64,000 nucleotides of DNA from Erinaceus europaeus (Eukaryota > Chordata > Mammalia > Eulipotyphla > Erinaceidae), in the NCBI RefSeq assembly GCF_950295315.1, contig NC_080179.1, positions 71,918,615-71,982,614 of the forward strand, written 5' to 3'. The position numbers were made by a program, and so were the translations under genes. Below are positions 2,565 through 49,248 of this stretch, one piece after another (position 1 is the first letter of the stretch; each line of letters starts with the position of its first letter). The notes under the pieces were generated by a model that was not told where the DNA came from, did not search any database, and saw only the letters and a program-made list of their open reading frames with translations.

Positions 2565-3600
2565 GAGGAGAATCAGTTCCATTCACTATAGTGGCAACAA
2601 CAATCAAATATATAGGAATAAACCTAACATAATAAAAACTTATATACTGAAAATTATGAGTCACTATTCAAGAAAATTGAAAAAGATACAAAGAAGTGGA
2701 GAGGCATCTCATGTTCATGGATTGTGAGAAATAACATCATCAAAGTGACTATTCTATCCAGAGTCATTTACAGATTTAATACAATCCCATCAATGTCCCA
2801 TCATTTTTAAAAGAGAATAGAAAAAAAGCTACAGTTTATTTGGAAGCAGTAAGTCCCTAGAATTGCCAAAGTGGCCTTGAGAAAAAAAGAACAGAACTGG
2901 AGGCAACACACTCCCAGATCTCAAACTATATTATAGGGCCATTGTAATAAAAACTTTCTGGTACTGGAGCAAAAATAGACAATTGACCAGTGGAATAAAA
3001 TTGAGGGCCCAGAATTAAGCCTTTATAACTATGGACATCTAATTTTTTACATGGAGACCCAAATTATTAAATGGAAAAATACAATCTCTTCAACAAATAG
3101 TGTTGGGATAATTGGATTGAAGCATGCAGAAGAATGAAAATGAACCACTACATTTCACCACACACAAATATAAATGCCAAGCAGATCAAGGACTTGGATA
3201 TTAGACCTGAAACTATCAAATACTTAAAGGAAAAAATTGGCAGAACTCTTTTCCATCTAAGTTTTAGAGTCATCTTCAGTGATACAAGTTCAATTGCAAG
3301 AAAGACAACAACAGCAACAACAACAAACCAATGGGACTACATCAAATTGGAAAGCTACTATACAGCAAAAGAAATCACCACCCAAACAAAGAGATTTCTT
3401 ACAGAATGGGGAAGATCTTTGCATGCTATATATCACACAAAAGCTTAGTAACCAAAATAAAAAAAAGTTCACCAAACTCAGCAACAAAAATCAATGACCC
3501 CATTCAAAAATGGGGAAGTCAGGCTCTGTTTCCCTTATCAGAAAGAAGAGGAAAAAAGGAAGTATACCTGGAAGTAGTAATAGGTGTAGGTGAGATTTAA
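2565..3600 (+). mobile_element. LINE-1 ORF2 C-terminal half (inactive)
   Basis: Translation in shifting + frames gives LINE-1 ORF2 hallmarks in order: a region with WRGIS-type text after the RT, RFNTIP-type residues, then from 3134 to 3448 an open 104-codon stretch with KDLDIRPETIKYL and WDYIKLESYYTAKE. These match the carboxy-terminal domain of mammalian ORF2p. Frames are broken several times, so the copy is dead. It ends near a CA microsatellite. Confidence 0.9.
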
Positions 3601-21235: not shown

Positions 21236-22440
21236 AACCAACAACATTAGATAGTGAAGGATTTAGACTATTTTCAAGAAATGGAATGACATTATCATAT
21301 GTATCCTACAAAAGATCACCAATGATTGCAGGATGGGGAATTTACTGAAAGGGAGGGATGACTGTAGAACGAGGCTTGTGAGATGTCACTGTTACATAAC
21401 CATGGTGGCTGTAGGTGTTGGCGAAGGGGGGGTAGTGGCATATGTTGTTGCTATTTCTGCTATCTGAGGGAAATCTATTGGTGCTGCTGGTATTGGGAGG
21501 GTTCCAGAGACAGAAGGATCAACCTAGATAGCAGTTCTCAAACTTGAACTAATATCTGAATCACCCAGAAAATTTACTAAAACTCGGATCATTGGATACC
21601 ACCTCCAGAGTTCCTGACTCAGTAAGCTAGAATTAGGAGCAGACAATTTATATTTTAATGCTTTTCTGGGAACTAACTAAACTTTAAGACCTACTAGCTT
21701 AAAACATGTGGTAACAAAAATAAGGTGGGAAGGGAAGGAAAAGAAGATAAAATATGGAATCTCTGACTGAGTACAGAAAAGGCTTCACAATTTGATTATT
21801 TTTGTTTCCTTAAAGTTGAGTGAATTAAAAAACAGGTGAGAGGCAACTAAACAAATTTGAGAATAGTGGGTGTTTAAAAATAGAGATAGTGTTAAATAGG
21901 ACAGAGAGTTGGCATGCATAGTGGTATTTGTGATGATAGTTTTCAAATATAAGCTGCAACAGCAAGAATGAAGGGGGTGAAAGATTCAACCAAAGAAAAA
22001 GACGAGGTCTGGAGATCTTAATCAGGAAAACTGGTGCACTGAAGGCTAAACTGACAAGAAAGTCAATTGTCTAAGGTAGAAAATAAAAGTTGATTTAGCT
22101 AACAAACACATCTAAATTTATGATGTCAGGGATACAGGCGATGGTGAGTTCCAGGTTTCCATAGTAGTAGGGGCTGAAATGGGGCTAGAAAAAGGATGAA
22201 GGCAGGGGTCACTGGAAATGAGGGTCAAGGTGCCAAAATTTTAGAGAATTGCTCTCCCTCTGAATGTTAAGCATGGAAGGGCTGAGAAAAGAGGTTAAGA
22301 TGATGATGATGAGCTTTGCTTTGGCCACAGTCTTCAATGAATGTGGGAGACTGACCAAAAGCTTCAAATTCTCTATTTGTAGAGAGGATTGTAGGTAATA
22401 AGAGTTAATGACAAGAGTGAGCCTTGAAGGAAGAGAGGTT
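21236..22440. other. Unique purine-rich DNA
   Basis: About 1.2 kb without a young repeat. AAAA- and GGG-rich text, no supportable coding exon on either strand. Confidence 0.4.
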
Positions 22441-22442
22441 CT

Positions 22443-22771
22443 TGTCGGGCATTAAGCCAGCTCCCTCTTTCTTTTTATTTAATAGCCATAGTATCAGGAA
22501 TATGGGGTGCTTTGTGAGCCCTGCCGAGCTCAACTACATCCTCACAATTTCCCGACATCTCCCCCTTTCTTTTTATCTAATGGCCATAGTATCAGGAATG
22601 TGGGGTGCTTTGTGAGGTAGGGAGTCTGATAGGACAAGGCAAACCTTTGGGGTTACTCCTGTCCCTCCTTGTTCAACCTCTCGGTAGAGAGAGAGAAAGA
22701 CTGACAGGAAAGACGCACTCCTCAGGTCAAGCCCTGCCAAGCTCAACCACATCCTCACAATTTTCCAACAG
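22443..22771 (-). mobile_element. ERV 3' internal fragment with repeated polypurine tract and inverted LTR stub
   Basis: Reading on the - strand, a 213-bp unit (22770-22558) starts TGTTGGAAAATTGTGAGG and ends in the tract AAAAAGAAAGGGGGAGA. A second, shortened unit (22557-22443) starts TGTCGGGAAATTGTGAGG. The same unit lies next to each LTR at 45113-45321 and 46398-46606. The + strand start TGTCGGGCATTAAGCCAGC at 22443 is an LTR start in the opposite sense, so the junction is rearranged. No full LTR is present. Confidence 0.7.
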
Positions 22772-23560
22772 GTTCTCAAAGGAGAGCGGAAGATCTGTAG
22801 ACTTCTTGAACAACTAGAAAAACCCTGACTCACACCTAAGTGAATGGAAAAGTCACAGCTTTTCCCATAAGGAGATGAAGCAACATTTGTAAAAAAAAAA
22901 ACAAAAACAAAAACAAGCAAGCAAACAAACAAACAAAAAACGTTGAGGCAATGAGGGAGCATATTAGTAATTAAATCTGAGTCTTAGAGGACGTGGTGGA
23001 AACATTTTAATTTATGGAATCGAACCTACATATTAGAGAAAACTGCTGGCAAGCAATCGATGAACTTGTCACAACCTCACTGCTTTAATTTATAGTTTGC
23101 TGAAGATAAGCTGAATTGATCTGTCCATTTGCTGAGAATGTCAATTAGCTAAGGAAAGTCATTCTCATGCTCACCGAATTCTAGCAGGCTTGCTCAGGTT
23201 AGTGGCATGGAGGAGAAGTCAGAAAATACATCTGTAATTAGATTATTGATAATCTGAGAGAAGAAACTCAGTTGGTATTATCCTAGGCACTTTAAGAATT
23301 ATTTATAACCCAGATAGAATCAATCTGGAAAATCGGAACCCAAAAGTCACCTACATGTGACTGATTAAAAGGTTAATTTGATTTATTGCTCTCATTGCTT
23401 TGACTGCCACTTAATACCAAGTGGTAGATTGCTTTTATTTAAAAGAAAGCAATTAGAGAAATGTATTCTTTGTAGACCAGGCATCATAAATTAGGTCTTT
23501 GGTCTGACTTTCTTAGGACAAAATAACTTTATAAATCTATAAAACCATTTTCTTTTCTTC
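22772..23560. other. Unique DNA with candidate conserved non-coding element
   Basis: An A-rich (AAAC)n tract lies at 22892-22940. From about 23020 to 23480 the sequence is free of repeats and rich in homeodomain-like TAATTA/ATTA and NKX-like CAAGTGG sites. No exon was seen. Confidence 0.35.
23240..23255. promoter_or_regulatory. Perfect inverted repeat in candidate regulatory DNA
   Basis: AGATTAT-TG-ATAATCT, two 7-bp arms around a 2-bp spacer, overlapping a TAATTAGATTA homeodomain-type motif. Function is inferred only. Confidence 0.3.
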
Positions 23561-44606: not shown

Positions 44607-44612
44607 GAGCTG
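44607..44612. repeat. Target-site duplication, left (GAGCTG)
   Basis: GAGCTG precedes TGCCGGGATAGC. The same six bases follow the element at 47107-47112, and joining the flanks restores continuous LINE-1 text (CCTAGAGCTGGATATTG). Confidence 0.9.
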
Positions 44613-45112
44613 TGCCGGGATAGCCTGAGGGTGCTTCTTCCTAAGCTAGTGCTCTCTGGGTTGGAGAGAACTCAACTGGAGCTAATCTAGGCTGCTGCGT
44701 GGGAGAGGGATCAGAAACTCGTGCCGCACTAACTTCGCAGGAGATACACTCTGGAACTCTCGGAGCCAGAAAGCAATTTCCAAGTGTGTTTAATCAGAAG
44801 AGCAGCTGTTTTTATACTCTCCAAGTAGGGTGGAAACAGGATGTGACATAGACAGGGTGGAGCGAAAAGTGACTGGTGGAAGATCAGGGTGTGACAAGGA
44901 GAGGATCAGGGTGTGATAAGGAGAGGGGGCGGAGCAGGTGAGAATTTTACCAGTAAACCACTAATGCCCTGGAGGGAGTGTGGTGCTTTATGTAAATGTA
45001 AAAGTGATTTATGTAAATAGACAGTTTTGAATGGGATCAACCCAATCCCTTATACAGGCATACTGGTGTTTGGTTAAGCAGAAGCCAGGGGGAGCTGGCA
45101 TACTACCCAACA
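44613..45112 (-). mobile_element. Left LTR (500 bp) of the palindromic provirus
   Basis: On the - strand it runs TGTTGGGTAGTATGCC (45112) to GCTATCCCGGCA (44613). TATA box TATAAAAA at 44816-44809, ATTAAA-type signal just downstream, and a two-copy CACACCCTGATC motif upstream of the TATA. Transcription from it would run leftward, out of the element. Confidence 0.92.
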
Positions 45113-45365
45113 TCTCCCCCTTTCTTTTTAACTATTTGCCATAGTATCAGGAGTGCGGGGCACTTTGTGAGGCAGGGAGACTGATAAGAGGCACACCTTT
45201 TGGGGTTCTACTGTCCCTCCTTGCTCAACCTCTCCGTAGAGAGAGAGAGACTAACAGGATTGACACACCCCTCAGGCTCAAGCCCTTCCAAGCTCAACCA
45301 TATCCTCACAATTCTCCAACATCTCCCTCTTACTTAATGGCCATATATAACTGCGTCAATGTCTG
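45113..45365 (-). mobile_element. 3' internal unit and polypurine tracts, left arm
   Basis: On the - strand: an inner tract AAGAGGGAGA followed by TGTTGGGGAATTGTGAGG, a 209-bp unit, then the tract AAAAAGAAAGGGGGAGA abutting the LTR. A TG-type LTR-like start therefore occurs twice. Confidence 0.85.
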
Positions 45366-46353
45366 TAAAAGGCTTCATCTCTGTCAGGGGAATAGCAGTG
45401 TAGGGGTGAACATAAACCTGTTGGGAAGAAGGCAGAATGATCAAGAGACAGAGTGAGCCTGATGGGTGGAGGAGTGGGGGCCTGATAAGCCGAGGGGCTA
45501 GAGGGGTGATCTGGCATTGCAAAATCCCGAGTCAGCTGGCGCAAAGTTCTGTGAACTGCTACAGTCATTCTTCAAGAAGTCCAGCAGTATAAAGGGAGTA
45601 TCCAGCAAGTTCTATAGAAGCATCAGTCCAATGTCAACGGCCAGGAAATAAATGCCACACGTCTATCTTGATGGAGGAGGACAGCCACTGGAACTTTTCT
45701 TCTCTGTAGAGAGTGACCTGGAACCGCCAAAACATGATGGGCGAAACAGAAGCAGGAAGAGCAGACACCGATGGTTGAGAGAAAGGCAGTAGGAAAGTCT
45801 TGTCCTTTGGAGTCTGTGAATCAGGTTCTCCAGATCGTGTCAGGTCACATCATGGGTTTCCGGGGGTGTGTTGTAGTCATTCCATCTTGTGGGCGATGTC
45901 AGAGAACAGGATCCAAATGGATTTCCAGGAATTCTATTTGAGTAGATGCTTTTTCATGTGAAGACTTGACAGCTGAAATTCACTTACTTGTCAAACAAAA
46001 CTTGTAGCAGATTAGTTTACTATAATTGATAACTCCATTATAATTGGAAGTCCTTTCTAGTATGATTTTAAGGTTGTTTAAACAGTTTAAACTCAATAAA
46101 ATGTGGAAAGGTAAACAGAAGAACCATGGTAGAAGCCTCAGGCATGAGAATAATTAACATAATCACTGCACTATCTGCCCCACCCATAACTCATAACGTT
46201 TTAGGATTAAATGTTTTAGATTTATGCCAAGACCTAGAAAAAGAAATCAAAGGAGGAAAAAAAATTTTTTTGGATTATTTCTGGATGTCTCTAGAAATCA
46301 TGGCTGCATCTAGCATTTTTTTTTTTAAGTCAATGTCATACAAAAATTCAGTC
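45366..46353. mobile_element. Non-palindromic spacer of the provirus
   Basis: The left half reads open on the - strand for 62-70 codons up to the arm and looks like genuine ERV internal sequence continuous with it. The right half reads open on the + strand (46126-46389) into its arm. I recognise no domain in either. The point where the two senses meet is not visible by eye; a T13 run and AAAAAAAATTTTTTT occur near 46260-46325. Confidence 0.5.
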
Positions 46354-46606
46354 CAGACATTGATGCAGTTATATATGGCCATTAAGTAAGAGGGAGATGT
46401 TGGGGAATTGTGAGGATATGGTTGAGCTTGGAAGGGCTTGAGCCTGAGGGGTGTGTCAATCCTGTTAGTCTCTCTCTCTCTATGGAGAGGTTGAGCAAGG
46501 AGGGACAGTAGAACCCCAAAAGGTGTGCCTCTTATCAGTCTCCCTGCCTCACAAAGTGCCCCGCACTCCTGATACTATGGCAAATAGTTAAAAAGAAAGG
46601 GGGAGA
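46354..46606 (+). mobile_element. 3' internal unit and polypurine tracts, right arm
   Basis: Mirror of 45113-45365: inner tract ending 46397, unit from TGTTGGGGAATTGTG at 46398, outer tract AAAAAGAAAGGGGGAGA ending 46606. Confidence 0.85.
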
Positions 46607-47106
46607 TGTTGGGTAGTATGCCAGCTCCCCCTGGCTTCTGCTTAACCAAACACCAGTATGCCTGTATAAGGGATTGGGTTGATCCCATTCAAAACTGTCT
46701 ATTTACATAAATCACTTTTACATTTACATAAAGCACCACACTCCCTCCAGGGCATTAGTGGTTTACTGGTAAAATTCTCACCTGCTCCGCCCCCTCTCCT
46801 TATCACACCCTGATCCTCTCCTTGTCACACCCTGATCTTCCACCAGTCACTTTTCGCTCCACCCTGTCTATGTCACATCCTGTTTCCACCCTACTTGGAG
46901 AGTATAAAAACAGCTGCTCTTCTGATTAAACACACTTGGAAATTGCTTTCTGGCTCCGAGAGTTCCAGAGTGTATCTCCTGCGAAATTAGTGCGGCACGA
47001 GTTTCTGATCCCTCTCCCACGCAGCAGCCTAGATCAGCTCCAGTTGAGTTCTCTCCAACCCAGAGAGCACTAGCTTGGGAAGAAGCACCCTCAAGCTATC
47101 CCAGCA
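46607..47106 (+). mobile_element. Right LTR (500 bp) of the palindromic provirus
   Basis: TGTTGGGTAGTATGCC to GCTATCCCAGCA. TATAAAAA at 46903-46910, ATTAAA at 46925-46930, transcription outward to the right. Flanked by GAGCTG at 47107-47112. Confidence 0.93.
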
Positions 47107-49248
47107 GAGCTGGATATTGTGATGCCTCCATTTTCCTTCTTTTTTCTTAAGAGTGCTTTTGCTATTTATGTTTTTTTTTAAGTTCCACATGAATTTTTAA
47201 ATAACCTTTTCAATTTCCTTGAAATATGTCATTGGGATTTTAATGAGAATTACATTGAATCTATAGGTTGTTTTTGGTAGAATTGTCATTTTAATGATAT
47301 TTATTCTTCCAGTCAATGAACAGGGGATGCTCTTCCATTTCTTTGTGTTATTCTCTATTTCTTTTAACAGTGTCTTAAAGTTTTCATTGAATAGACACTT
47401 TAATCCTTTGTTCAATTTATTCCTAGGTATTTAATCTTTTTCAGTGTTTCCTCTGACTCATCTTTTGCATAGATAAATGCTACAGATTTGTGGTTATTGA
47501 TTTTGTTACCTGCTACTTTACTGAATTTAATTATGATTTACAGTAGTATCTTGGCAGATTTTCTGGAGTCTAGTAGGTATATCAACATATTATCTGCAAA
47601 TAATGATAGTTTAACTTAATTTCTCTTCCTTTTTTGGTTTATTTCTAGTTTCATGACTTCATGGTCTGAGAAGATGCATTTTAGTATTTTAATATTTACG
47701 TATTTGTTTAGGCTATCTTTGTGTCCCAGCATCTGGTCAATCCTTGTGGATTTTCCATGTGTACTTGAGAAGAATTCACTTCCTTTGGGATGAAAAGATC
47801 TGTATATAACTATTAGGTCCATTTAATCTGCTGTTTCATTTAAGATAGTTATTTCTCTATTGATTTTTTTTTTTTTGTCCTGATGTTCTCTCTTTTGCTG
47901 TGAGTGGTGTATTAAAATCTCCTACTTTTGTTATATTGTATTGTTGTCAATGTCTCCCTTAAGTTCAGTTTTTGTCTGATGTACTTGGGGTGTATATATT
48001 TATGATGGTTATATCTTTTTGTTGGATTGATCCTTTAACCAGTATGTAGTCTCTGTGTCTCTGATTACTTTTTCCCACTGGAATACTGTTTTATCAGAGG
48101 ACAGAATAGTTGTCCATACTGGTTTTTGTGAGTTATTAGCTTGAAATATCTTGCTCCAGCCTTTTATATTCAGTTTCCATTTATCTATTCTTTAGATGTG
48201 TGTTTCCTGAAGACATATAATGGTTGAATTCTGTTCTTTAACACATTTAGCTACACTGAATCTTTTGGCAGGTGAATTTGAGCCTTTCACATTTAGGGTG
48301 ATTATTGATATGTGTAGTTTACTTACGTCCTATCTGATTTTTGCTTTGAGTTTGTTTTAAATTCTTGATTTTTTTGCCCATTTGTTTATATCTGTCCTTT
48401 TGTGTGGATGAGTTTCTGTGGTGAGTGCCTCACTCATTTCTCTTATACTTTCTGTAAATCTCTGTTTTCTGTTTTGTTTTGTGGTTACCATAAGTGTAAT
48501 AGCTAGCATTGTGTATCTAGAAAAGTCTCTTTTAAGTTGATCTTGATTAACAAACATTTGATAGAGCTGCTTTATCCTTTAACTCCCTCCCCTGCTTGTT
48601 TTGTTGTTATTTCCTATTTTTATTGTGTTCTTAGTTCTAGTCTACTGCTTTTAACCTCACTTAGAATGTGTATTTTTTTTTTTTTTGCTTCCTCCTTTCT
48701 TGAAGGACTCCATCCAGTATTTCTTGTAGGGTGGGGTTGATTTTGTGGCAAATTCCTTTAGTTTTTATAAGTTTGAGAAAACCTTTAGTTCTCTCTTATA
48801 TTTGAAGGATAGTCTTGCAGGATACAAGATTTGTGGCTAGAATTTTCTCTCCTTTAGTACTTTTAATATTTCATTCCACTTTCTTCTTGTCTCTAGCTTT
48901 TGTGGAGAGAAATATGATGAAAGCTTGACAACTCTGCCTTTGTATGTTACTTCTTTCCTTTCTCTAGAAGCCTGCAATTTCCCCCTTGTAATTGAGTTTT
49001 GATAGCTTTACAATAATATGCCTTGACGTTGGTTGTTTTGAATTTACAAATTTGGGTGAGCATTCTGCCTTTTGAACAAATATATTCTGAGGATTGCCTA
49101 GGGGAAGGAATTTCTCAGCTAAAATTTCTCTGAAAATTATGTCTGGTCCTTTGACCTGATCTTCAGCCTCAGATATTCCTATCACTCTTACATTTGACCT
49201 TTTAACGGAATTCTGCAATTTCATAGAAAGTCACTTCTTTCATTCTTT

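Follow-up and report, generated by a model that had tools for sequence, protein, structure and literature searches.

In the window, i.e., the whole 64,000-nucleotide stretch of Erinaceus europaeus DNA that was analyzed, positions 44613-47106 hold an insertion in which the U5 end of one LTR of an endogenous retrovirus (ERV) forms both edges and which is flanked by an exact 6-bp duplication, GAGCTG. The element would very probably go back to one integrase event by which an aberrant cDNA with a U5 end at both termini was inserted; it represents normal integrase chemistry on an abnormal substrate. A provirus is normally expected to have two different ends, and the U5/U5 pairing that is known in vitro survives here in the germline, with the duplication intact and with an interior that can be resolved. 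Two questions are opened to genome tests by this element, namely, how strict the choice of ends is in vivo and how unfinished cDNAs get joined. It also calls for caution in annotation and dating based on LTRs, for which direct pairs are taken for granted.

Architecture of the Element

The element contains two inverted arms, 44613-45365 and 46354-47106, of 753 bp each, with 8 mismatches in an arm-versus-arm alignment. As had been described in an initial annotation, each arm is composed of a 500-bp LTR on the outside and of 253 bp of internal sequence with a polypurine tract on the inside. The left LTR (44613-45112, minus strand) has its U5 tip outermost and is followed by the polypurine tract and the 3′ internal sequence, termed UNIT (45113-45365, minus strand), as seen from the comparison of the arms and from relatives; the counterpart of the latter stretch in the right arm (46354-46606, plus strand) leads into the right LTR (46607-47106, plus strand), which was delimited with relatives and the provirus introduced below, has its U5 tip outermost as well, and carries a TATA box at 46903 in the sense direction of the arm. 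The joint between the two inverted halves divides the element unequally, leaving 1741 bp to the left versus 753 bp to the right.

Reverse-complemented, the left tip reads AGGCTATCCCGGCA, and the right tip reads AAGCTATCCCAGCA. Both are U5, i.e., the LTR end that faces the primer-binding side in an ordinary relative, and the LTR tips at both edges are processed viral ends of the TG...CA type. The arrangement of an ordinary provirus, with U3 at one edge, U5 at the other, and LTRs in direct order, is thus not found in the element. The orientation of the LTRs is secure, because in an ordinary provirus of the same family (C87:61076521-61084227), which has U3 on the left, U5 on the right, and GGGAAG duplicated at its edges, a PBS-like sequence begins 2 nt after the 5′ LTR and a polypurine tract precedes the 3′ LTR; the earlier assignment of both outer tips to U5 is thereby placed on firm ground. 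Of the class II traits, the family has the 6-bp duplication and the TG...CA ends of the LTR. At L007, the sequence following the LTR may resemble a primer-binding site of the lysine type.

Upstream of the polypurine tract, 46399-46606 (and 45113-45320 in the left arm) resembles the U3 start of an LTR type of approximately 693 bp and begins after a purine-rich tract of its own, so that the 3′ end has two boundaries of tract plus TGTTGGG, 209 bp apart. A Pfam search with ten reading frames of the element gave a single match, far below the cut-off, and viral contigs scanned with the polypurine-tract/LTR pattern gave no match.

Target Site

The left copy of GAGCTG (44607-44612) lies in LINE-1 ORF2 sequence, in antisense orientation, and the right copy is found at 47107-47112. 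If the flanks are rejoined with a single GAGCTG, their alignment with human LINE-1 ORF2p (five PDB sequences, best E value 8.3e-33) is gapless at the site, in agreement with the previous claim that the duplication sits in a continuous LINE-1. The joined flanks also align across the same point with a second L1 copy in the window (2603-3389), in a gapped alignment of 65% identity with two mutually offsetting 1-bp gaps close to the site. Since the LINE-1 is continuous across the site, the element and a single 6-bp duplication are all that the insertion visibly contributed, which is the mark of a two-ended integrase insertion. An exact 6-bp duplication is also present in five of six other insertions checked, namely, in the ordinary C87 provirus and in four of five solo LTRs, the fifth of which (L004) has 5 bp.

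That two U5 ends were joined by integrase in one event, as had already been proposed, is strongly supported because the U5 tips and the 6-bp duplication are exact, the LINE-1 is continuous, and the ordinary C87 provirus has a 6-bp duplication of its own.

Composition of the Interior

The 988 bp between the arms were searched in the window's own genome (2.72 Gb) and are made up of a mosaic of two sequence types, A and B, which ends at one blunt joint, 46353|46354. Sequences of the A type (L011-L016 and L023) match 45366-46047 and lead into UNIT and the LTR, except that L011 has a gap of about 22 bp and L023 about 60 extra bp inside. Sequences of the B type (six loci fetched, L017-L022) match 45805-46353 and are part of short elements, with two related LTRs about 2.2 kb apart at five of the six loci. 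Accordingly, A-family 3′ internal sequence, continuous with the left arm and in the order seen in relatives, occupies 45366-45854 (minus strand), and internal sequence of the B family, i.e., of the short element with related LTRs, occupies 45861-46353 (minus strand). In comparison with seven A and six B copies, the diagnostic sites are of A type through 45854 and of B type from 45861, with one exception further on, at 45935; from these sites, the switch within 45855-45860 (minus strand) is a sharp homologous crossover as in copy-choice recombination. An origin of the 988-bp spacer from foreign or host DNA was ruled out, as the A and B families match it over its whole length.

Another A/B mosaic is found at L010, where 45442-46190 is matched in one stretch with 94% identity and where B-type states occur at 45830, 45834, 45840, and 45854, at which the window is still of A type. 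Chimeras of the A/B kind are therefore not confined to the window and, since such mosaics exist elsewhere, the A/B chimera may predate the insertion, and a mixed virion is not proven.

Two further observations concern the A and B relatives. About 60 bp between the equivalents of 45441 and 45442 are present in L010, L023, L032-L034, L039, L042, and L044-L051 and absent from the element in the window, L011-L016, and L043, which makes them a subfamily marker. L014 and L016 (G000:C2:9468734 and C2:9644725) are near-identical 3′ ends of proviruses that lie on one contig at a distance of about 176 kb and may result from segmental duplication.

The Tail-to-Tail Joint

The order of the left arm, i.e., spacer end, UNIT, and LTR, was found in all 28 A/B 3′ ends examined, eight of which had been fetched by a spacer match and are thus biased toward this order, and 20 by UNIT alone, as the top 20 of 38 other matches. 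Among the eight spacer-picked loci, a gap of 1 bp in L010 and of about 22 bp in L011 is seen; six of the 20 UNIT-fetched ends are B-like, and in these UNIT adjoins just the final 54 bp of the spacer. At 46353|46354, B sequence in antisense meets A sequence in sense, tail to tail, with 0 bp of microhomology and no inserted base. Beyond 46353 all six B copies diverge from the window, and upstream of 46354 four A copies and the left arm do so; among the fetched relatives, including the 28 A/B 3′ ends, the joint occurs in none. The right arm, instead of the left, as the one in ordinary order was ruled out by the order in relatives and by the joint comparison. Autointegration was rejected as well, the internal joint having no LTR tip.

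Across the joint lies an 8-bp inverted repeat, TCAATGTC/GACATTGA (46330-46363), which stems from a 9-bp word common to A and B near their ends; in a control with 5000 random pairs of 40-bp pieces of the window, 43 pairs shared at least 9 bp.

Ancestry and Age of the Arms

A tree of 24 rows places the arms as sisters (100/99), with a bootstrap that was not fully settled. All 8 differences between them are transitions, with one arm keeping the commonest family state and the other having changed from C to T or from G to A. At four of these positions the minority state is also encountered in 3 to 5 of 22 other copies; therefore, the arms may have differed from the outset. Seven states are common to both arms and absent from the 22 copies. 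Five of them are also absent from a 14-copy comparison, which includes six LTR-only copies; one of the five, located in UNIT, could be compared in the 22 copies only. For the other two, absence from the 14 copies does not hold, and they are hence not private. The simplest reading of these sequences would be that a single source served as the template of both arms and that decay set in once they had been inserted. If neutral rates are taken as 2 to 4 per billion sites and years, the arm divergence of 1.06% would correspond to an age of roughly 1.3 to 2.7 million years.

Frequency and a Probable Second Like-Ended Insertion

A genome search for further U5-U5 proviruses had been suggested. Queries with the 3′ end gave 120 rows with 66 distinct 3′ ends, two of them from the window, in a small sample of the most similar copies (the best 40 of about 1900 to 2000 candidates per query). 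The search recovered the pair of the window, which lies on opposite strands and is the sole inverted pair as well as the sole case of neighbors within 20 kb among the 66 ends; no other U5-U5 provirus came up among them. The interior of the element is spanned by no other of 44 genome matches.

A second unusual insertion, of 328 bp, is located at 22443-22770, between copies of GGTTCT at 22437-22442 and 22771-22776. On the minus strand, its tip corresponds to the beginning of U3 in another LTR type; of seven relatives fetched, five have a match that starts exactly there, beside sequence that varies between copies; one of the five, L026, is 693 bp long and has the edges AGTTCT and GGTTCT, which are alike in five of six bases. 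The plus-strand tip, TGTCGGGCATTAAGCCAGCTCCC, corresponds to the beginning of U3 in a related LTR type. When Y is allowed at position 4, this motif has 138 occurrences in the genome, the reversed control having 0, and similar LTR-like sequence follows at all eight loci inspected, in L054 after a polypurine tract. Between the two U3-like tips, the strand turns back at GGGAG. Judged from these sequence matches, the insertion is a probable U3-U3 case, i.e., the mirror image of the U5-U5 element.

The only exact match of the fold-back junction in the genome is the junction itself; 10 matches with one mismatch are, judged by their 60-bp surroundings, not such junctions. An ordinary solo LTR was considered for 22443-22770 and set aside; in 43 matches, no other one passes base 313 of 328.

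Since one 64-kb window has both the U5-U5 element and the probable U3-U3 insertion, the genome may hold many of them. That like-ended insertions, U5-U5 and U3-U3, would be recurrent in this ERV group, with the germline integrase accepting identical ends when fed by unfinished or folded reverse transcripts, is a tentative and rather unlikely proposal; if true, such insertions would be a fossil record of end pairing.

Routes to a Molecule with Two U5 Ends

The U3 end of a retrovirus forms only after the second strand transfer. Before that transfer, the cDNA would offer integrase only its U5 end, and both halves of the element would be unfinished reverse transcripts. The U5 pair would come from two molecules of this kind or from a minus strand that was copied back with a minus strand as template. 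Reverse transcriptase would have switched by copy choice from A to B RNA and stopped within B; the 3′ end would then have been extended on a further A minus strand, or ligated to it, in tail-to-tail fashion. Integrase, as a symmetric enzyme, would process and join both U5 ends with the normal 6-bp stagger. The left half of the element is an A 3′ end that recombined with B through homology, and the right half is another A 3′ end that shares its source. The joint would be due either to reverse transcriptase or to end joining, and the sequence does not tell whether joining or integration came first. Such a use of U5 ends has parallels in vitro. For HIV-1 integrase, the part of the report drawn on here describes U5-end pairs as preferred over U3/U5 or U3/U3 pairs and a 5-bp duplication in most cloned products (PMC8742673); for MMTV, the corresponding part describes integrase assays with U5-end oligonucleotides and a complex built with 6 bp between the joining sites (PMC9410886).

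Roughly an even chance may be given to a snap-back or a jump of reverse transcriptase from minus strand to minus strand before integration, in the course of which minus-strand strong-stop DNA would prime the second strand and both ends would become U5. The A-to-B copy-choice switch in the same strand and the derivation of the arms from one source would fit this course of events, as would the inverted repeat across the joint with its 9-bp A/B word and the GGGAG homology at the fold-back of the 22.4-kb insertion. Against it, the 9-bp word has no clear priming role, and primer homology is missing at the joint itself, contrary to what a simple self-primed snap-back predicts; this is one of the points that speak against the best explanation. 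If the virion had contained a single A and a single B RNA, degradation by RNase H would have limited the A region to one round of copying from RNA, and the second A arm would consequently have been copied from DNA. This argument slightly favors the reverse-transcriptase jump and would be cancelled by a pre-existing A/B chimera.

Somewhat less probable, yet a serious contender, is a pairing by integrase of the U5 ends of two unfinished cDNAs, which would leave a chromosome break and have the viral tails linked by host end joining. The blunt joint, the unequal lengths on either side of it, and the preference for U5-end pairs in the in vitro work cited (PMC8742673) would suit this sequence of events, but it needs two same-source cDNAs in one cell, given the five private shared states, and survival of the chromosome break. 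The palindromic or dimeric DNA that had been invoked in the initial annotation was right as a class of substrate. The dimer may have existed before integration or have arisen only later, because two one-ended cDNAs that were integrated together and end-joined afterwards would give an element of the same appearance. Snap-back, proposed along with it, stands as one option, and both the lack of microhomology at the joint and the asymmetry of the molecule tell against it.

Later rearrangement of an ordinary provirus, be it by inversion of the 5′ LTR, by nested opposite insertion with deletion, or by gene conversion, is very improbable. Inversions and nested insertions do occur in old ERVs, but the breakpoint would have to fall exactly between viral tip and target duplication and to recreate an exact U5 tip beside the correct 6 bp, and no LINE-1 sequence was lost at the site; the lower rank that had been assigned to this possibility holds. 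Least probable of all is an assembly or library artefact, since fold-back reads can create long inverted repeats but would mirror the flanks too; the flanks here represent distinct parts of a LINE-1 that follow on from each other, with a 6-bp duplication, and 8 differences separate the arms.

Comparison with Known Systems

A single integrase event on a cDNA with two U5 termini thus remains the preferred reading, to which the present analysis adds a resolution of the interior, the assignment of ordinary order to the left arm instead of the right, and a second insertion that is probably like-ended. Palindromic retroviral DNA has been the subject of older studies in subscription journals; among the open-access papers listed, no germline U5-U5 provirus was reported. 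A near counterpart is an ordinary class II-like provirus of the same family, such as that at C87, which has the same LTR type, the polypurine tract, and a 6-bp target duplication, but which differs by having U3 at one edge and U5 at the other, and one 3′ end in place of two inverted ones. Concerted U5/U5 integration in vitro, as far as covered by the part of the report cited, likewise involves two U5 ends and a normal short duplication, albeit in the test tube and with short substrates (PMC8742673), whereas a joined molecule was inserted into the germline here. The template-switch complexes of cereal LTR retrotransposons (Sabot and Schulman 2007, PMC1950507) resemble the element in that an aberrant reverse transcript was inserted once, with one target duplication; in the cited portion of that paper, they comprise an internal LTR and two core sequences, and the word "inverted" is absent from its text, whereas the halves of the element are inverted and both of its tips are U5. 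In aberrant HIV proviruses formed with impaired integrase, viral DNA is joined to further viral DNA in either orientation, but mostly, according to the section of the report cited, with one end integrase-like, the other host-made, and with large duplications or deletions (PMC5041404), whereas the element described here bears the hallmarks of integrase at both of its ends.
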